Translations under genes and position numbers: made by a program
Notes under the pieces: generated by a model
Seen by the model: only the letters and a program-made list of their open reading frames with translations
The model's database searches: none
What the model was told of the DNA's origin: nothing
Shown: positions 3,468 through 60,447 of the stretch, piece by piece
Position numbering within the stretch: the first letter of the stretch is position 1
How the letters are laid out: the number at the start of each line of letters is the position of its first letter
Source: Sulfurimonas denitrificans DSM 1251
Lineage (GTDB): Bacteria > Campylobacterota > Campylobacteria > Campylobacterales > Sulfurimonadaceae
DNA length: 64,000 nt
Assembly: GCF_000012965.1 (NCBI RefSeq)
Contig: NC_007575.1
Span: 372,001 to 436,000 of the forward strand
Direction of reading: 5' to 3'

Positions 3468-4919
3468 CTAAAGAGGCGGCATTGAGATAGTATCGTTTGA
3501 GATACTTATGTGTGCGGAGCGAGTATCAACATTTTCATAAACCGTCTCAATCGATTTTATATGGTTATGTGAATCAATAAACTTTGTAAGTTTTTTCTGA
3601 AATATTAGCTTAACATGTCCAGTTGGTCCATTTCTCTGTTTACCTATGATAATCTCAGCATCTTCCTCTTCACGTTCAACATAAGTGCTAACAAACTCAT
3701 GACCTTTTGCTTTAGCCTCTTTTTCTCGCTCTTTCTCCTCTTTGTAGAGATAGACATCATCACGATAAACAAAAAGAATGATATCTGCATCTTGTTCAAT
3801 TGAACCAGACTCACGGATATCACTAAGCATTGGCCTTTTATCGTTTCTTGATTCAAGTCCGCGATTTAGCTGTGAGAGAGCAACTATTGGCATATTTAAC
3901 TCTCTTGCTAACATCTTAAGTCCACGAGAAATTTCTGAGACTTGCAAATGTCTATCTTGATTTCCGACACCGCTCATAATTTGAAGATAATCAATTACCG
4001 CTATCTCAATTTCTGGGTGTTGATTTTTGAGTTTTCTAAGTTTTGAGCGGAGTTGATTTATATTAATACTTCCATGGTCATCAACATAGAGTTTCGCACT
4101 GTTCATCTTGTCTATTGCTCCATTTAGCGAGCCCCACTGATCATTGCTCATATCTCCGACACGGAGTTTTTGAAGTGGTATAGCAGTTTGAATCGACAAA
4201 AGACGAAGCATAAGCTGTTCTGCTGGCATCTCAAGAGAGAAGAATGCAACTCCTTTGCCTTGCATGATAAGAGTGTTGACAGTGTTTAGTATAAAAGAAG
4301 TTTTACCCATAGCAGGGCGCGCTGCCACTATAACGAGATCACCTTTTCCAAATCCTGTTGTCATCTTGTTTAGCTCATGAAAACCAGTATCGACACCCAC
4401 TAAAACAGTGTTTCCACGAGCTTTCATCTCTTTGATGTATGTCATCGTGTCAAATGTCATCTTTGGAGAGTCTTTAAAATCACTTGTTTGATTGTTTTGA
4501 GTAATTTCATAGAGTTTTTTCTCTACTATATCTATAACTTCTTGACTTGAGAGTTCCTCTTCAACTGTCACTCTTTTGATTTCTGTAGTAAGTGTTAAGA
4601 GGTGGCGCTTTAGGGATTTATCTCTTATCTCTTCTACATAAGCTTTCGTATTTGAGATTGGATTTGCAGAGAGAATTTCAAGCATTACATTTTCATCAAA
4701 TTTTTTGATTTTTATAAGCTCTTTTTTTATGAACTCTTCATCAATTGGCTGATCTTTTTGAAAGAGAAGGGTCATGACTCCAAAGATATCTTGGTGCGCT
4801 GGTAGATAAAAATCATCTTTTTTTAGTTGTGAACTTAGCTCATCAAACTGGCTTGGCTCAAAAACTATGGAGCTTAAGATGCTTCTCTCAAAAGCTAGAT
4901 TGTATAGGTTGTCTTGCAT
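3468..4919 (-). CDS. dnaB: Replicative DNA helicase DnaB
   Basis: Hexameric 5'-3' helicase that unwinds the fork and recruits primase. The 483 residues match the family. The N-terminal helical domain spans about 5-105; the RecA-like ATPase domain starts near 165 with Walker A ARPAMGKTS at 200-208, followed by FFSLEMP near 226, the Walker B region IAVIDYLQ and the DIRESGSIEQDAD segment. The ATG at 4919 shares one base with the stop of ispG, giving a tight ispG-dnaB-comEC transcription unit. A possible replication accessory, the DciA-like gene at 47024-47482, is elsewhere in the window. Confidence 0.96.
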   Translation of the reverse strand: MQDNLYNLAFERSILSSIVFEPSQFDELSSQLKKDDFYLPAHQDIFGVMTLLFQKDQPIDEEFIKKELIKIKKFDENVMLEILSANPISNTKAYVEEIRDKSLKRHLLTLTTEIKRVTVEEELSSQEVIDIVEKKLYEITQNNQTSDFKDSPKMTFDTMTYIKEMKARGNTVLVGVDTGFHELNKMTTGFGKGDLVIVAARPAMGKTSFILNTVNTLIMQGKGVAFFSLEMPAEQLMLRLLSIQTAIPLQKLRVGDMSNDQWGSLNGAIDKMNSAKLYVDDHGSININQLRSKLRKLKNQHPEIEIAVIDYLQIMSGVGNQDRHLQVSEISRGLKMLARELNMPIVALSQLNRGLESRNDKRPMLSDIRESGSIEQDADIILFVYRDDVYLYKEEKEREKEAKAKGHEFVSTYVEREEEDAEIIIGKQRNGPTGHVKLIFQKKLTKFIDSHNHIKSIETVYENVDTRSAHISISNDTISMPPL

Positions 4920-5977
4920 TAAAACTCTTTTGCCATTTTTTCTACTTCTTGTACAAATCTATCAACAAGCTCATGTTCATCGAGATTTGCTACAACTTCG
5001 CCTTTAACCATAACAAGCCCTTTTCCTTTGCCATAGGCAATAGCAATGTCTGCATGAGCTGCTTCTCCGATAGCATTTACAACGCATCCCATAACTGAGA
5101 CATTAAGCGGTGCTTTTATATGTGTTGTTCGTCTCTCTATTTCGCCAACAGCGCTAACCAAATCAGCTTCTATGCGACCACATGTAGGACAGGAGATAAT
5201 ATTTAATCCATCTTTTGCAGCGCCACTATCTTTGAGTATTGCACGAGCAACATTTATCTCCTCTTCAAGCTCACCTGTAATACTAACTCTCATAGTATCG
5301 CCGATTCCATCAAGAAGAAGTGCACCTAAACCAATGGAGCTTTTTACTGTTGCATGAAAAAGTGTTCCAGCTTCTGTAACACCTAGATGAAAAGGGTAGT
5401 TGTTTTTTGGACGCAACATTCTGTATGCATCAACAGTCCTTTGAACATCACTAGCTTTTAGAGAAATCTTAATATCATCAAATCCCAAATCTTCTAAAAA
5501 CTTAATGTTATACTCAGCAGAGGCTACCATACCCTCTGAAGTCTGTCCATACTTGTTTAAAAACTCTTTTTCCAAACTTCCAGCATTTACACCGATACGT
5601 ATTGGGATGTTTCGTTCTTGGCAAGCTTTTACTACCTCTTTAACACGCTCACGTGAACCAATGTTTCCTGGATTTATTCGTATGCAGTCAACTACTTCTG
5701 CGGCAATTAGAGCTAGGCGATAGTTGAAGTGAATATCTGCAACAAGAGGAAGCGAGATTTGCTCTTTAATAGCCCTTAGTGCCAGAGCATCTTCCATCTC
5801 TGGAACTGCTACACGAACTATGTCACACCCGGCAAAATGGAGTCTTTTTATCTGCTCTACAGTTGAGAAAACATCTGAAGTTTTAGAAAATGTCATTGAC
5901 TGAACACTTATAGGTGAATCACCACCAACTGCTACATTGCCCACAAATATCTGTTTAGTTTTTACTCTATTTATCAT
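4919..5977 (-). CDS. ispG: 4-hydroxy-3-methylbut-2-en-1-yl diphosphate synthase IspG (GcpE)
   Basis: Iron-sulfur enzyme of the MEP isoprenoid pathway that converts methylerythritol cyclodiphosphate to HMBDP. The 352 residues form the short bacterial type: a TIM barrel (about 1-240) and a C-terminal domain holding the cluster cysteines C263 and C266 (SCPTCGR) and C298 (MGCVVN). A glutamate for the fourth ligand is present in GEAAHAD. It is the first gene of the ispG-dnaB-comEC set. About 160 bp with two stem-loops separate it from the TonB receptor upstream. Confidence 0.96.
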
Positions 5978-6049
5978 AGAGAGATTTTAGCTAGATTGGG
6001 ATAAAAAAGTGCTTTTATTTTATATTATGCGCTAAAATTAACGTGTTGG

Positions 6050-8124: not shown

Positions 8125-8202
8125 ATAATTAACCTTAATTTTTAAAATAAGTTAATTATATAAGTTTTTTGTTACAAAAGTGTTAAATCAATTGAAAAAA
8201 TA

Positions 8203-8220
8203 TGTTAAAATTGCGTAATG
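8203..8220 (+). promoter_or_regulatory. Extended -10 promoter, probably giving a leaderless mRNA
   Basis: TG-T-TAAAAT at 8203-8211 is an extended -10 element. The ATG at 8218 begins after a six-base spacer, where transcription would be expected to start. No Shine-Dalgarno lies before the ATG. The geometry is the same as at alr (9342-9359). Confidence 0.5.
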
Positions 8221-8352
8221 AATATACAGATGATAAAAAAAATTATTTTAATAGTTTTAGGTTTAAGCCTCTCGGCTTATTTGATTTATAGTGGTTTTGA
8301 GATTTTGAATCATGAAGAGGCAAAACCCAAAGAGAGTGTTGAAGTTAAATAA
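8218..8352 (+). CDS. Small single-pass membrane protein, unknown function
   Basis: A 44-residue protein, MNIQMIKKIILIVLGLSLS at its start, with one hydrophobic helix (about 8-25) after a basic N-terminus and a short acidic/basic tail ending EAKPKESVEVK. The inside-positive layout suggests N-in, C-out. A second in-frame ATG at 8230 is an alternative start. It is divergent from the copper-type receptor and its last eight bases overlap the stop of the convergent agmatine deiminase gene. It may assist the receptor or be unrelated; no family is recognised. Confidence 0.5.
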   Translation: MNIQMIKKIILIVLGLSLSAYLIYSGFEILNHEEAKPKESVEVK

Positions 8353-9340
8353 GCTCAACACCTTTAGCAAAGTTCATAGTAACACAGTGAAGTGAACCAT
8401 GTTGCTTTATAAGCGTAAAGCAGTTAATTGGCACGATATCTTTTGTAGGAAATGTATCTTTAAATATTTTAAGCGCTTCTTCATCCTCTTTTACCCCATA
8501 AATTGGCACTAATACAGCACCATTTACAAAAAGAAAATTTGCATAAGTTGCAGGTAGTCTCTCGTTATCGAAGTAACATGCTTCACTCATTGGAAGTGCA
8601 ATAAGTTTAAAACCTTCATCTTTTGCAAATACTTTAAGCTCATCCTCCATAAGTTTTAACTCTTTGTAGTGTTCATCATTTTTATCTTCACACTTAACAT
8701 ACATGATAGTTTTCTCATCAACAAATCTAGCCAAAGTATCTACATGTGAGTCTGTGTCATCACCTGCTAGGTAGCCATGATTTAGATAAAGAATTTTGCT
8801 CATACCAAACTCATCTTTTAGTATTTGAGTCATCTGCTCTTTTTTAAGAGAACTATTTCTATTTTTATTTAACATACACTCTGAAGTTGTGAGAATCGTA
8901 TTGACTCCATTGCTCTCAACTCCACCGCCCTCTAAAATCAAATCAATCGTTTTGAGTTTTTTACTGTAACTGTGTGCTATTTCTTTACTCATAACGTTAT
9001 CTTTAGAAGCTTCAAACTTTCCGCCCCAACCTGTAAATGTAAAGTCAAGAAGTTCTACATTGGAGCCATTTTCAATACATAAAGCGGAACAATCCCTTGC
9101 CCAAGTGTCATTTGTCTCATACTCTACAAAGTACAAGTTCTTATTTGGCTCAAATCTTCTTTTCACATCTTGAACGTCAGCAGACACAACAAGACACTTT
9201 TGATACTTGATAATCTCTTTAATGATATTTTCAAAGGTCTCTTCAGCTTCGCTCAAATACTCTACCCAATCACTATTTACATGTGGAAAAATTATTTGTG
9301 TAAAACTCTGCTCTTCAAACTCTGCTATAAACCTTTTCAT
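8345..9340 (-). CDS. aguA: Agmatine deiminase (peptidyl-arginine deiminase family)
   Basis: Hydrolyses agmatine to N-carbamoylputrescine and ammonia in the arginine-decarboxylase route to putrescine. The 331-residue protein shows the family's substrate-guanidine motifs: TWARD near 82, LEGGGVESNG near 130, the DDTDSHVDTLARF histidine segment near 200, and the catalytic cysteine in GSLHCVTMN close to the C-terminus. I choose the ATG at 9340 (MKRFIAEFEEQ), which has AAGGA ten bases upstream. An open frame runs further upstream, into alr on the other strand, but is not family-like. The start is only 16 bp from the divergent alr start. Confidence 0.9.
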   Translation of the reverse strand: MKRFIAEFEEQSFTQIIFPHVNSDWVEYLSEAEETFENIIKEIIKYQKCLVVSADVQDVKRRFEPNKNLYFVEYETNDTWARDCSALCIENGSNVELLDFTFTGWGGKFEASKDNVMSKEIAHSYSKKLKTIDLILEGGGVESNGVNTILTTSECMLNKNRNSSLKKEQMTQILKDEFGMSKILYLNHGYLAGDDTDSHVDTLARFVDEKTIMYVKCEDKNDEHYKELKLMEDELKVFAKDEGFKLIALPMSEACYFDNERLPATYANFLFVNGAVLVPIYGVKEDEEALKIFKDTFPTKDIVPINCFTLIKQHGSLHCVTMNFAKGVELI

Positions 9341-9341
9341 T

Positions 9342-9359
9342 TGGTATAATTCCTTCATG
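9342..9359 (+). promoter_or_regulatory. Extended -10 promoter for alr; predicted leaderless transcript
   Basis: TG-G-TATAAT at 9342-9350 is a perfect extended -10 element. The alr ATG is at 9357, six bases after the box, so the mRNA would start at or next to the A of the ATG. There is no Shine-Dalgarno before alr. Confidence 0.6.
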
Positions 9360-10373
9360 GCTACAATAATTTTAAATAAAAACAATTTTTTTAATAATCT
9401 CGACATTATCGCTAAATATAGCAAAAGTGTAGATAAAATCGCACTTGTTTTAAAAGACAATGCTTATGGGCATGGGCTTGTTGAAATGTCCTCTATGGCA
9501 AAAGAGTATGGCATCAAAAGGGCAGTTGTTAGAACTCATAGAGAAGCAGAGATAGCAGAGAGTTTTTTTAGTTATATCTTAGTACTTGGCGACATTCCAA
9601 CAATGGTCTCTAAAACTATCAGATATACGATAAACGACTTAGAGAGTATTGATAAATTTCCAAAAGAGACACGAGTAGAGCTGAAAATAGACAGTGGCAT
9701 GCATAGAAACGGCATAGCAATAGATGAAATAGAAGAGGCGTTTATAAAAATAAAAGCAAGAGGGCTACTCTTAGAGGGGCTCTTTACCCATCATAGAAGT
9801 GCCGACGAGCTTACAAGTGAGTGGTTTTGGCAAAAAAAGAACTTTGAAGATGCAAAAAGAATAGCAAAAGAGTTAGCCATAAAGTATGGCTTTGCTCCTC
9901 TTAGATTTCACTCCTCAAACTCTGCAGCACTATTTCGCAATGCTTCATTTGATGAAGATATGGCAAGAGTTGGGATTGCAGCTTATGGATGTATGACGCT
10001 TCCCAAACCACTACATGTAGATGGGTTTAAGCCAGTTTTATCGCTTTGGGCAAAAAAGCTCTCATCAAGAAAACTGAAGAGTCATCAAAGAGTGGGTTAT
10101 GGCGGAGATGGAGAAATTTTATCTGATGGTGTTGTGAGTAATTATGATTTTGGTTATGGAGAGGGCTTTTTAAGAGTCTGCGCAAATGGCTATAAAACAC
10201 CAGAGGGCATAGAACTCATTGGTAGAATCTCTATGGATAATAGCTCATTTCTAAGCTCAAAAGATAAACTGCTTATCTTCGATAGTGCGCTACATGTAGC
10301 AACTTACGCTTCAACTATAAGTTATGAAGTGCTGACTTCGCTTAAACCAGAGATAAAAAGAGAGATTTTTTAA
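9357..10373 (+). CDS. alr: Alanine racemase
   Basis: PLP enzyme interconverting L- and D-alanine for peptidoglycan. The start ATG at 9357 gives 338 residues beginning MATIILNKNNFF. The PLP lysine is in VLKDNAYGHG (K33), and the C-terminal domain holds RVGYGGDGE and GRISMDNSSF, matching the family's YG and MD signatures. It is slightly shorter than the usual 350-370. Its last four bases overlap the convergent GGDEF/EAL gene. An open frame extends upstream to 9207, but that part is antisense to agmatine deiminase and lacks family similarity. Confidence 0.93.
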   Translation: MATIILNKNNFFNNLDIIAKYSKSVDKIALVLKDNAYGHGLVEMSSMAKEYGIKRAVVRTHREAEIAESFFSYILVLGDIPTMVSKTIRYTINDLESIDKFPKETRVELKIDSGMHRNGIAIDEIEEAFIKIKARGLLLEGLFTHHRSADELTSEWFWQKKNFEDAKRIAKELAIKYGFAPLRFHSSNSAALFRNASFDEDMARVGIAAYGCMTLPKPLHVDGFKPVLSLWAKKLSSRKLKSHQRVGYGGDGEILSDGVVSNYDFGYGEGFLRVCANGYKTPEGIELIGRISMDNSSFLSSKDKLLIFDSALHVATYASTISYEVLTSLKPEIKREIF

Positions 10374-22713: not shown

Positions 22714-22729
22714 TACAATTCATTTTATG
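22714..22729 (+). promoter_or_regulatory. -10 box next to start codon, possible leaderless mRNA
   Basis: TACAAT at 22714-22719 is followed after seven bases by the ATG at 22727. No Shine-Dalgarno is present. The third of four such arrangements in the window. Confidence 0.4.
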
Positions 22730-23185
22730 AAATATTATAATTATGAAACATTTAAAAATGACACAAATAAGTTGCTGCTTTTGCTTAGGGAGCATGATTT
22801 TGAAGCGATAGTAACAGTAGCAAGAGGTGGTTTTACGCTAGCTCACGCAGTCTCTCAAGGATTAAATATAAGAGATGTTCAAAGCATCAGAACTGAACTT
22901 TACGACAAAGATAAAAAAAGAGAGAAGATTAAACTTTTTCAAAAATGCGATTTTAGGAATCTTAAGAGAGTTTTACTGCTTGATGATATATCTGATAGTG
23001 GGGAGACTCTTAGTGCTGTTATGGGCTATTTAAAGGAAGAATTTAAAGAGATAGAGTTTAAATCCGCAACACTTTTTTATAAAAAAACCTCTATGTATGA
23101 GCCAGATTTTTGGATAAATGAAGTAGATGATTGGATAGATTTTTTCTGGGAGAGAGATTTTTTAGAGGATAAAACTATCTCTTAG
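22727..23185 (+). CDS. Phosphoribosyltransferase (xanthine/hypoxanthine type)
   Basis: A 152-residue purine-salvage-type enzyme transferring a base to PRPP. The PRPP-binding loop is VLLLDDISDSGETL at about 88-101, and ARGGFTLAHAVSQGL near 38 is the pyrophosphate loop. The ATG at 22727 (MKYYNYETF) is chosen over an in-frame upstream codon at 22691 because the extension is not family-like. It overlaps the convergent cytochrome gene by 11 bp. The base used cannot be fixed from sequence. Confidence 0.85.
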   Translation: MKYYNYETFKNDTNKLLLLLREHDFEAIVTVARGGFTLAHAVSQGLNIRDVQSIRTELYDKDKKREKIKLFQKCDFRNLKRVLLLDDISDSGETLSAVMGYLKEEFKEIEFKSATLFYKKTSMYEPDFWINEVDDWIDFFWERDFLEDKTIS

Positions 23186-26213: not shown

Positions 26214-26229
26214 TATACTTGCATTCATG
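26214..26229 (+). promoter_or_regulatory. -10 box next to start codon, possible leaderless mRNA
   Basis: TATACT at 26214-26219 precedes the ATG at 26227 by seven bases and there is no Shine-Dalgarno. The open frame upstream of this ATG has no family resemblance. Confidence 0.4.
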
Positions 26230-27114
26230 AAACATATTAAAGAGTTAAACAGCGGTGTAAAATATATGCTTATTGCATCACTGCTTTTTGCCGTAATGGG
26301 CGCATTTGCAAAACTAGCATCAGAACATATGAGTTCACTTGAGGTAGTTTTTTTTAGAAATATTTTCGGTGTAATCTTTATTGGATATGCTCTTTATAAA
26401 AGCCCGATGAAGAGTAGGGGTGGGAAACCATATTTGCTGTTTTTTAGAGGATTGATGGGGTTTTTATCTCTTCTTGCCTATTTTTACAACATAGCAAATA
26501 TTTCACTTGGAGACGCTGTTACCTACTCAAAAACTGCACCTATCTTCACGGCTATTTTTGCATGGTTTTTTTTAAATGAAAAACTCTCACTTAATGCTTG
26601 GATTGCTGTATTTATAGGTTTTTGCGGGATTGTTTTAATCGCACAACCCAGCGGAATTGGTTTTAGCAAATATGACATGTTAGGAATTTTTAGCGGTGTT
26701 GGTGCTGCTCTTGCATACACTTCAATAAGAGAGTTAAAAGAGTACTATGATACGAGAATGATAGTTTTATCTTTTACTTTTGTTGGAACAGTTGCTCCGA
26801 TTTTACTTTTTATAATCTCAAAATATTTTTATATCTCTGCGCTTGATTTTATGTTGGGAGAGTTTGTTCTTCCTAGTGGAGTTGTTTGGGTTTATATTGT
26901 GGGGCTTGGTACTTTGGGAACGCTATCTCAATACTTTATGACAAAAGCGTATGGAGAGACAAAAGCGGGAATTGTTGGGGCGGTTAGTTATACAAATATA
27001 GTTTTTGCTATTTTTATTGGAGTAGTGCTTGGAGACGCATATCCAAGTGTTGTAAGCGCATGTGGAATTGCTCTTATAGTCAGTGCTGGAATTATGGTTG
27101 CAAAATCAAAATAA
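26227..27114 (+). CDS. EamA-type drug/metabolite transporter
   Basis: A 295-residue inner-membrane transporter with ten hydrophobic helices in two EamA repeats (about 8-135 and 150-290). Signatures include FAVMGAFAKLASEHMSSLEVVFFRN in repeat one and AYGETKAGIVGAVSYTNIVFA in repeat two. Substrate unknown; the family exports metabolites. Divergent from the exported pair at 24369-26163. Starts at MKHIKELNSG. Confidence 0.9.
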   Translation: MKHIKELNSGVKYMLIASLLFAVMGAFAKLASEHMSSLEVVFFRNIFGVIFIGYALYKSPMKSRGGKPYLLFFRGLMGFLSLLAYFYNIANISLGDAVTYSKTAPIFTAIFAWFFLNEKLSLNAWIAVFIGFCGIVLIAQPSGIGFSKYDMLGIFSGVGAALAYTSIRELKEYYDTRMIVLSFTFVGTVAPILLFIISKYFYISALDFMLGEFVLPSGVVWVYIVGLGTLGTLSQYFMTKAYGETKAGIVGAVSYTNIVFAIFIGVVLGDAYPSVVSACGIALIVSAGIMVAKSK

Positions 27115-45231: not shown

Positions 45232-47034
45232 TTATATGTAACTACTCTTTATAATATTTGCATCTTTTAAGTTTAACACAGTGCTAAGTTCTTCAACACT
45301 AGCTTCTTTGATGGCATCAAATGTAGTAAAGTGTTTTAAGAGTTTGATGATTTTTGCTTGAGAAATACCCTTTAATGTGAGCAACTTGCTCTCATTATCA
45401 CTTTTTAATTTTGTTTTTTTATGAAAATTTATAGCGCATCTGTGAGCTTCATCTCTTAATTTTTGAACAAAATGAAGTCTCTTGTCACTATCTAAAAGTT
45501 TAAAGATATCCTCCCTTGAGTAGATGATGTCTTTTGCTTTACCCTTTGCGCGATGAGCTTTTGCATCTACTTTCTCTTTGGCAATTGCAATGACATCTAT
45601 ATTTACTCCACTTGACTCTAAGATAGACAAGGCTAGATTTAGCAGTGTACTTCCACCATCTAAAATCCATAAATCAGGAGGAGGATTTTTTAGAAAACTC
45701 TCAACTCGTCTAAGGAGCATCTCTCTCATTTGAGCGTATTCATCTCTTGCTTCAAGATGATAGATGCGATAACTTTTTTTATCAAACGCCCCATTTTCAT
45801 AAACAGACATAGCACCAACAGTTGCAACTCCTGACATATGAGAGTTGTCAAAAGTTTCTACTCTAGAGGGGACTCTTTGAAGAGAAAAAAGCTTTTTTAT
45901 CTCATCTAAAATTCCACTCTGGTTTTCTTTAGTCTCATTTTTAAGGAGTTCTGCGGCATTTAGCAGTGCCAAATCTATAAGTTGCTTTCTTTTTGCAGTT
46001 TTTGGAACTTTTATATCTGCCTTTTTCTCAAAGAGTGTGCTTAAAAACTCCTCTATGCTATCTTTGCCCTCAAACTCTGAGGCTACTAAAATAGGGGCGA
46101 TAATAGGGGGTTTACCATGAGAATAAAACCCCATAATAGCCCTTTGATAAAGCTCATCTTCATCATATCCCTCATGAAGTTGTATGTAATCATGAGAAGA
46201 GGATATTATCTTGCCCTCTCTCATAAAAATTCTAACAACTACTGCTCTGCTTTGGGAGGAGGCAATGACAAAAATATCATAATTTTCACTACTTGCAAAA
46301 TCTATCTCGCTCTTAATCTCTGAGCGACTTATCCTCTCGCATCTGTCACGAAGTGCCGTCGCCTCTTCAAATCTTAAGTTATCAGCATAATAAAACATCT
46401 TCTCTTGAAGCTTTTTAATCAATATTTTTTTATTTAAAATGAGCTCTTTTGCTAAATCTAACTCTCTTTGGTAATCTTCATCACTTACATGTAGTTCACA
46501 TGGACCCAAACATCGATTTATCTGATGGTAAAGGCAGAGTTTCTTTGAAGTGAGAGAGCCTTTTTTTTGCACAAGTGCACATAGCTCATAAATAGAGTCT
46601 AAAATATCACGAGCACCTACTGAAAATGGACCATAGTATTTAATATTTGATGATTTGATGATTTTTCTTGTCATCTCAAATCTGGGATATTTTTGTGAGT
46701 TGTCTATGTAGATGTATGGATATGTTTTATCATCACGAAGCAAAATATTGTATTTTGGCATAAGTTGCTTGATAAGAGAATTTTCTAGGATAAGTGCGTC
46801 ATGCTCGGAGTTTACAACTATATATTGGAGTGTATGAGTTTGAGAAATCATCTTAGAAATTCTACTTGAGAGGTTTGAATTTGGTTTGAATTTGGGAGCA
46901 AAATTAAAGTAGCTTTTTACTCTCTTTGCCAAACTTTTTGCTTTTCCAATGTAGAGAAGATGTCCATCTTTGTCAAAATATTGATAAACTCCAGCAGAAT
47001 CTGGAAGCTGCTTTATGCACTCTCTAAGAGTCAT
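45232..47034 (-). CDS. uvrC: Excinuclease ABC subunit C (UvrC)
   Basis: Nucleotide-excision repair nuclease that makes both incisions. The 600 residues show the GIY-YIG domain at the N-terminus ([21 protein letters not shown]), an UvrB-binding UVR motif near 205-240, the RNase H-like domain ([29 protein letters not shown]), and a C-terminal helix-hairpin-helix. It starts within the end of the DciA-like gene, overlapping by 11 bp. Confidence 0.96.
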
Positions 47035-47482
47035 GACTTCTTGTCTCTTTGATTATTTTTTGAATTTCTTTAGCTAAAGAGTTCAATTTTTCATCTTTTA
47101 TATCGATGTTAAAATCGCCATTTGAGCGCTCTTGATAGGTTCCAATTATGTCTTTTGTTTTCACATTTTGGCTCTTTGGAGCATGTGTTACAAACGCTTT
47201 AATATCATCAAATAAATTCTCATCACACTCTTTGCACTCGGTGGGCATATAGAACTTTAAAGCACTTTTAATGCTTTGTATATTATTATCAAATTCTTGT
47301 TTCCCAATAGGATGATTAAATACGAAAAATAGTGTTTTGTTTTTGATATAAGCGAAGTTAATCATGTTTTGTATAGGCGGAGTAAACATAGATTGGACTA
47401 TTTTTATACATTTATAGTAAATTAGTTTAGAGAATTGAGGTCTGCTTTGAATAGAATTTATAATTTGACTAGCGTTTTTCAT
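47024..47482 (-). CDS. DciA-like protein (DUF721)
   Basis: A 152-residue small basic protein with the DUF721 pattern: N-terminal helices, IKFAYI-type [18 protein letters not shown] segment (about 41-58) and a lysine/glutamate tail. DciA loads DnaB helicase in bacteria without DnaC, which would match the DnaB here at 3468. Its coding start overlaps the 5' end of the divergent lipoprotein gene, an unusual head-to-head overlap. Confidence 0.72.
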
Positions 47483-47641
47483 CTGGCAATTATAGCAATG
47501 TTTTTATTAAGTTTGAATGGATGTGGTTATAAGGCTGATCCATACTATTTACAGAGTGCGCCAAAGGGCGATGAAAATGTAAAATTTATCATCAAAGAGC
47601 CAAAGAGCGACAATAATGAAAGCGATGCCATAAATAAATGA
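47447..47641 (+). CDS. LptM-like small lipoprotein
   Basis: About 64 residues if started from TTG at 47447 ([14 protein letters not shown]). Other in-frame starts are TTG 47435 and 47465 and ATG 47498; the last leaves too short a signal. The lipobox LNGC is followed by GYKADPYYLQSAPK, close to the CG.K.PLYFP start of LptM/YifL proteins that help LptD form correct disulfides. Its stop overlaps the nadB ATG as ATGA. lptD lies at 54788. Confidence 0.65.
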   Translation: MNRIYNLTSVFHLAIIAMFLLSLNGCGYKADPYYLQSAPKGDENVKFIIKEPKSDNNESDAINK

Positions 47642-52797: not shown

Positions 52798-52998
52798 AAT
52801 AGTCTGGGTGGTTCGATATATCGCTTAATGAGGGTTCTACATTTTCAATTAGCGAACTAGTAATGCTCTTGTGTGTCGGTGCTATCGTTTGAGATATGTT
52901 TACTCTGTCGAGATAATGCCGCCGATAAAGAGCACTCTCTTCGCCCAAATACGGCTTTTAGAACCAAGCCAACTGCGAGACGGCTACTCGGGCTATTA
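52798..52998 (+). ncRNA. ssrS: 6S RNA
   Basis: A rod-like RNA of about 200 nt between hemD and purD. The 5' end AATAGTCTGGGTGGTT (52798-52813) pairs over 16 consecutive positions, G-U pairs included, with GGCTACTCGGGCTATT at 52982-52997. An inner stem joins TGCTCTT (52867 region) to AAGAGCA (52937 region), leaving a central bubble, which is the fold of 6S RNA that sequesters RNA polymerase holoenzyme. As I recall, 6S RNA lies next to purD in other Campylobacterota. The exact 3' end is uncertain. Confidence 0.8.
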
Positions 52999-54349: not shown

Positions 54350-54795
54350 ACGAAGATATTCAAGATAGACTCTATCATGAAGATATGAAATTAGCATCAA
54401 TCAAAAAGAGGTCAATGGCTTTTTTTGTAGATGAGATGCTTCTTTCTCTTTTGTTAATAATTGGTCTTGGAGACTCTTTCCTTGAAGCTAAAACTCTTGA
54501 GGAGATGATTTTGTTAACAAATAAATTCTTTTTGGAGTACATGGTAATAAAAATTATATATCAAGCTTTTTTCGTAATGCAATATGGAGCAACTCTTGGT
54601 AAACTTCTTGTAAAAATTAGAGTAGTAGAGATTAAAACATTGCAAAAACCAAATGTAATTGTTGCACTAAACCGCGCAATAATTAGAGTAATAAGTGAGA
54701 TGCTCTTTTATCTTGGTTTTTTATGGGGAGTGCTTGACCCATCAAGACAAGCTTGGCATGACAAAAGTGCTAAAACATTGGTTGTAGATGTTTAA
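54346..54795 (+). CDS. RDD-family membrane protein
   Basis: A 149-residue protein with a GTG start at 54346 that overlaps the purD stop by four bases (GTGA). Three hydrophobic helices occupy about 22-42, 62-80 and 112-128; the RDD-like [19 protein letters not shown] and [12 protein letters not shown] segments are visible. Function of the family is unclear. Its stop lies eight bases inside lptD. Confidence 0.82.
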
Positions 54796-60363: not shown

Positions 60364-60447
60364 GCGACCGTGGTGGAACGGTAGACACGCTACCTTGAGG
60401 TGGTAGTGCCCTCGGGTGTGGGAGTTCAAATCTCCCCGGTCGCACCA
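60364..60447 (+). tRNA. tRNA-Leu (anticodon GAG)
   Basis: An 84-base tRNA with acceptor GCGACCG/CGGTCGC and CCA encoded. The anticodon stem CTACC/GGTAG encloses loop TTGAGGT with GAG at 60397-60399, and a long variable arm (TGCCCTCGGGTG) marks a class II tRNA. T-arm GGAG-TTCAAAT-CTCC is intact. It reads CUC and CUU leucine codons. Confidence 0.96.

Follow-up and report, generated by a model that had tools for sequence, protein, structure and literature searches.

Extended -10 boxes placed six or seven bases before ATG predict leaderless mRNAs at six genes of Sulfurimonas denitrificans

The DNA analysed here, referred to as the window, is a stretch of 64,000 nucleotides (bases 372001-436000) of the single-contig genome of Sulfurimonas denitrificans DSM 1251, which has 2,201,561 bases. 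All positions given below are those of the window. At 9342-9350 on the plus strand lies an extended -10 box, TGGTATAAT, six bases before the ATG at 9357 of alr, the alanine racemase gene at 9357-10373 (NCBIfam NF000791, 465 bits; Pfam PF01168 and PF00842). A 44-aa ORF at 8218-8352 (+), judged by eye to be probably a small membrane protein, is preceded in the same way by an extended -10 box, TGTTAAAAT, at 8203-8211 (+), six bases before its ATG at 8218. Two genes of the plus strand have the box seven bases before the ATG. One encodes a phosphoribosyltransferase-domain protein (22727-23185; PF00156, 60 bits) with TACAAT at 22714-22719 (+) ahead of the ATG at 22727, and the other an EamA-family transporter (26227-27114; PF00892, 109 bits) with TATACT at 26214-26219 (+) ahead of the ATG at 26227. 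These four boxes had been listed in a first-pass annotation of the window, and each was found where it had been placed. The class had there been taken to number four; the four stand, and two genes of the minus strand extend it to six in the window. In ispG (gcpE; 4919-5977; PF04551, 478 bits; NF001540, 479 bits), TAAAAT at 5984-5989 (-) is six bases from the ATG at 5977-5975. In the gene of a 152-aa protein directly upstream of uvrC (47024-47482, with uvrC itself at 45232-47034 by Pfam), TATAAT at 47489-47494 (-) is six bases from the ATG at 47482-47480. All six genes are predicted to be leaderless. The window also holds an Rfam purD RNA motif at 52860-52993 (+; 82 bits) and, as the sole tRNA found in it, a tRNA-Leu(gag) at 60364-60447 (+).

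Neither Pfam nor NCBIfam gave a family above threshold for the 152-aa protein, and a provisional assignment as DciA-like was dropped on that ground. No Pfam family above threshold was found for the 44-aa ORF, which has matches in 27 of 60 genomes, all within the genus. It is absent from the 62 genes called in the window and therefore stands outside the genome statistics described below. The gene divergent from it is that of a TonB-dependent receptor. At 8170-8186 the sequence TGTTACAAAAGTGTTAA contains two similar half-sites 11 bases apart, with its centre about 40 bases before the predicted start of the small ORF. Similar sequences precede many orthologues of this ORF, and TGTTACAAAAGTGTTAA may be a response-regulator site.

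The six genes share several features besides the box. All of them start with ATG and, as judged from gene spacing, all head transcription units; ispG trails a same-strand gene by 161 bases. None has a Shine-Dalgarno (SD) match of four or more bases. The first-pass annotation had described its four genes as lacking an SD that most other genes possess, and the wider sample agrees, with an SD at 343 of 550 other sampled ATG starts.

The frequency of such boxes was measured in a sample of 864 kb, composed of the window and 40 stretches of 20 kb from the same genome (G000), in which 813 genes were called. Gene starts were picked from coding score alone, blind to SD and promoter sequences. A second sample, 800 kb of the relative G012, was analysed identically. 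A box was defined by at most one mismatch to TATAAT with TA....T fixed, and spacings of 2-5 and 8-12 bases before the ATG served as controls. In the 864 kb sample, 16 of 572 ATG starts had a box at 6 bases, compared with a mean of 4.2 at the control spacings (Poisson p ~1e-5). The exact hexamer TATAAT occurred there 11 times against 1.0 expected (p ~1e-8). The G012 sample gave 15 of 549 ATG starts against 3.9 expected, with the exact hexamer accounting for only 4 against 0.7 (p 0.005). Among spacings from 0 to 15 bases, the next-highest count was 11 in each sample, at 15 bases. The peak persisted when the window was removed (13/525 against 4.1, p 4e-4) and when the stretch of G012 corresponding to the window was removed (14/534, p 6e-5). 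Over whole genomes, TATAAT-N6-ATG outnumbered its reversed-pattern control in each of the 37 genus genomes searched (totals of 2185 and 1143) and, among 23 further genomes of the order, in 21 (1136 and 741).

A spacing of 7 bases showed no excess, with 4 boxes against 4.2 in the 864 kb sample and 5 against 3.9 in G012. The scan for boxes 6-7 bases before ATG that the first-pass annotation had called for thus yields, over the sampled stretches, an enrichment at 6 bases and none at 7. The 7-base spacing was rejected as evidence in itself, and the phosphoribosyltransferase and EamA cases consequently rest on conservation; they could not have been supported from the G000 genome alone. Nor did the sample uphold a special density in the window, where four such genes in 64 kb had been thought a notable share. 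Strict boxes at 6 bases numbered 14 in the other 800 kb sampled, and the window has three (alr, ispG and the gene upstream of uvrC) plus that of the small ORF. A fourth window box, at 54385, was left out of the count, being 13 codons into a gene. Boxes at 6 bases were rarer before GTG or TTG than before ATG (5/412 versus 31/1121), a difference that was not significant (p 0.09), and this comparison of start codons was dropped as too weak.

The genes with a box at 6 bases also differ in context from those with boxes at other spacings. When both samples were pooled, boxes at 6 bases (n=30) were compared with those at 0-4 (n=40) and 8-12 bases (n=46). An SD was present in 2/30 at 6 bases, in 26/40 at 0-4 and in 21/46 at 8-12, the frequency over all ATG starts in the pool being 636/1064. 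A same-strand neighbour within 20 bases was found in 1/30, 20/40 and 16/46, respectively. A pyrimidine at position -1 occurred in 25/30, 24/40 and 21/46, and the G of an extended -10 element in 19/30, 11/40 and 7/46. Divergent neighbours (13/30) were commoner at 6 bases than at 0-4 bases and no commoner than at 8-12 bases (17/46). In a broader candidate set of 49 genes (spacing 5-7, SD shorter than 4 bases), some of which are likely false, a divergent neighbour was present in 22/49 as compared with 318/1406 of other genes. Divergent spacing in this set was shorter than at SD genes, with medians of 100.5 and 162 bases (p 0.002).

Conservation was assessed in orthologues by scoring a box 5-8 bases before an ATG as the layout. 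Since the classifier requires ATG, the resulting counts are no independent test of the ATG start. The classified genus genomes comprise at most 30 loci per search together with further fetched loci and are a subset of the genomes with a match; members of the genus are related, so that the counts are not independent of one another. Contig-edge loci (L282 for the gene upstream of uvrC and L210 among the named alr loci) and second loci of one genome (an alr of G059 and an EamA gene of G025) were excluded. For alr, 26 of the 30 classified genus genomes had the layout; the box was 5-7 bases from the ATG, and protein identities to the window alr went down to 57%. It was present in 46 of 47 start-reaching alr loci of named genomes, a set that partly overlaps the former. 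Outside the genus it was found in 4 of 19 genomes, two of the four (L323 and L329) having weak boxes. The small ORF kept it in 22 of 27 classified genus genomes, the EamA gene in 30 of 33 (0 of 14 outside the genus) and ispG in 29 of 30 (4 of 20 loci outside). All 29 classified genus genomes had the layout at the gene upstream of uvrC, as had 18 of 20 loci outside the genus. The pyrimidine rule at -1 fails at this gene, a purine being present in 13/29. An SD-like match of at least 4 bases also occurred in ten genus loci that keep the layout (alr 1, phosphoribosyltransferase 2, EamA 3, ispG 4).

The phosphoribosyltransferase gene is divided. The layout was found in 16 of 34 classified genus genomes, an SD instead in 17 and neither in one. 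The SD-type orthologues begin at the corresponding codon or one next to it, and 11 of the 17 use TTG or GTG there. In a 30-genome tree, the two states fell, without a formal test, largely into two groups, the exceptions being G009 and G025. The G025 match, scored as SD, is a copy of 44% identity that follows another gene. Outside the genus, one genome of 16 had the layout, at locus L355 and seven codons off, and this match is probably spurious.

Conservation was also examined across the samples by pairing orthologues of G000 and G012. A box at 6-7 bases was kept in 6 of 10 pairs; of the 197 genes lacking such a box in G000, 6 had one in G012 (p ~2e-6). Of the six conserved pairs the window supplies three, for which the G012 stretch had been chosen on purpose. 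Without them, 3 of 7 pairs keep the box, which is still above 6/197 (p 0.002) and is not above the recurrence of control-spacing boxes, 5 of 26 (p 0.3); with the window genes included, the comparison with control-spacing boxes gave p 0.04. Across the sample, conservation of the boxes is thus no more than suggestive, and the argument depends on the genes examined one at a time.

At two of the six loci the box lies within the 5' end of a divergent gene. The gene opposite alr, at 8345-9340 (-), belongs to the agmatine deiminase family (PF04371, 352 bits; agmatine deiminase models match it below their cut-offs), and the two ATGs are 16 bases apart (9338-9359). AAGGA at 9351-9355 on the minus strand is the likely SD of this gene, and the alr -10 box sits between it and the ATG that it would serve. 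It follows from this placement that the divergent gene's own promoter is probably within alr. The two transcripts would then probably have mutually antisense 5' ends. Of 30 genus alr loci, 21 have a divergent ORF of 327 codons or more that begins with an ATG 14-17 bases away. At the gene upstream of uvrC, the predicted promoter is contained, on the other strand, in the codons of a small divergent ORF at 47447-47641 (+), with a putative TTG start at 47447 and a lipoprotein-like signal peptide whose lipobox was recognised by pattern match; the genes overlap head to head. A divergent lipoprotein-like signal peptide running through the box was found in 42 of 49 loci (28/29 in the genus and 14/20 outside), as counted with a loose pattern and no shuffled control. 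The residues FHxxII were present in 41 of these 42. This motif follows from ATG-AA and TATAAT six bases apart on the other strand, and the evidence for the overlap is therefore the open frame with its lipobox.

Then, what would a box in this position mean for the transcript? A sigma-70 extended -10 promoter so placed would have RNA polymerase start on the A of the ATG or no more than two bases from it, and the resulting mRNA would have neither a 5' leader nor an SD. On leaderless mRNAs the ribosome, as 70S or as 30S with initiator tRNA, takes the 5'-terminal AUG directly. We consider it highly probable that the six window genes have sigma-70 extended -10 promoters giving leaderless mRNAs. The box, the scarcity of SD, the context and the conservation are read from the sequence, and from them we infer a transcription start at the ATG and translation from the 5'-terminal AUG. 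A start on the A of the ATG or on an adjacent base is predicted from the spacing peak, the SD scarcity, the position at the head of gene groups, the pyrimidine at -1 and the conservation within the genus. The leaderless transcripts proposed in the first-pass annotation gain support from the same features. By this genomic evidence the leaderless reading is well supported for alr, the 44-aa ORF, the EamA gene, ispG and the gene upstream of uvrC, and somewhat less so for the phosphoribosyltransferase gene.

Several other readings of the boxes were weighed. In a genome of about 65% AT, boxes could be chance matches at genes whose transcription starts elsewhere. The 7-base boxes, which are no commoner than those at control spacings, would agree with this, as would the appearance of a box in G012 at 6 of the 197 genes without one in G000 and the recurrence of control-spacing boxes in 5 of 26. 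Chance is nevertheless very improbable as an explanation, given that the peak is restricted to 6 bases and repeated in a second species and that the layout at the six window genes recurs across the genus even where alr has diverged to the identity given above. Unlikely, though less so, is that the promoters are real and the start lies a few bases before or after the ATG, which would give very short leaders or an mRNA beginning inside the codon. The spacing does range from 5 to 7 bases among orthologues and the EamA gene keeps 7 in most species, but with a peak at exactly 6 the A of the ATG falls where transcription usually starts, and a pyrimidine precedes this A in most of the pooled cases.

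The spacing might also be an artefact of start choice, with the true start codons elsewhere. Starts were indeed picked by coding score alone, and the EamA gene has an in-frame ATG at codon 14. However, most orthologues align from the Met chosen here, and several relatives have almost no open frame ahead of it. The N-terminal residues of EamA are alike across species by eye, with synonymous changes, and in the SD-type phosphoribosyltransferase orthologues the start is at most shifted to a neighbouring codon; we regard misplaced starts as the least probable of these readings. Lastly, the divergent gene, through its SD or its signal peptide, could account in place of a promoter for what is conserved at alr and at the gene upstream of uvrC. 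At alr, the probable SD of the divergent gene lies in the spacer, and the box upstream of uvrC reads as Ile-Ile codons of the lipoprotein-like ORF. Yet the alr box survives in loci lacking a close divergent ORF (L052, L056 and L074), and TATAAT is exact in 29/29 genus loci of the gene upstream of uvrC though the Ile codons could vary synonymously. The EamA, ispG and phosphoribosyltransferase genes are free of such overlap in the window. Constraint from the divergent gene is thus a very doubtful source of the pattern, about on a level with chance, and leaderless transcription from extended -10 promoters is the reading that we carry forward.

Leaderless mRNAs were said in the first-pass annotation to be known in some bacteria, and in this group they have been mapped in Campylobacter jejuni and Helicobacter pylori (PMC3847290). 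Differential RNA-seq of C. jejuni is reported there to give 19 leaders shorter than 10 nt, 12 of which begin exactly with the start codon; those leaderless starts are all ATG and are preceded by TAnAaT (PMC3847290). The same source made leaderless predictions in 40 other Epsilonproteobacteria, Sulfurimonas among them, using a gnTAnaAT box 5-9 bases before the ATG and no ribosome binding site. The arrangement in the window is alike, as a gnTAnaAT-like box 5-9 bases before the start was found at the six genes, the TATACT of the EamA gene being one base off. Leaderless sigma-70 mRNAs are already known in the group, so that the window genes add members and not a new mechanism. Porcelli and colleagues (PMC3847290) reported cj1247c/hp0820 as the only gene predicted leaderless in every species holding it. 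That gene lies upstream of uvrC, as does one of the window genes, and the 152-aa gene is here taken by its position as the counterpart; if it is the orthologue, it constitutes a positive control. The main text of PMC3847290 does not contain the words alr, racemase, ispG, gcpE or phosphoribosyltransferase.

The published comparison differs in scope from ours. As it is presented in PMC3847290, the comparison was limited to 23 genes with leaderless mRNA in C. jejuni or H. pylori, 3 of them in both species, and non-conservation was stressed. Here, in contrast, each of five layouts is found in most classified genus genomes and the sixth, that of the phosphoribosyltransferase, in about half. These counts suggest that genes can stay leaderless throughout a genus; turnover was what the published comparison emphasised. 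Ribosome profiling in C. jejuni, an experimental study of a related bacterium, is reported to have covered about 20 leaderless predictions, judging six to initiate at or near the transcription start, moving one to leadered and leaving 14 unclear (PMC11955535). The overturned and unclear cases warn against calls made, as ours are, from sequence only. A literature search, confined to listings, found no Sulfurimonas transcript map. The six genes provide a defined and testable set of predicted leaderless genes for one Sulfurimonas genome; the gene upstream of uvrC is a likely positive control in the same window. The phosphoribosyltransferase offers a natural switch from leaderless to SD initiation within one gene, a suitable case in which to study the conditions favouring either mode.

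Of these results, the nested, dual-coded promoters most deserve further attention. The alr and uvrC-upstream cases raise the tentative possibility, which we think somewhat improbable, that some leaderless starts of the Campylobacterota represent an evolved packing, in which a promoter is placed inside the 5' end of a divergent neighbour and the DNA is shared. A narrow literature check found no paper on a leaderless promoter nested in this way or on the overlap with a divergent lipoprotein gene. If such packing is real, the box and ATG upstream of uvrC would dictate signal-peptide residues of the divergent lipoprotein, in DNA that is dual-coded across much of the order, and 5' ends overlapping in antisense could couple the expression of both genes.
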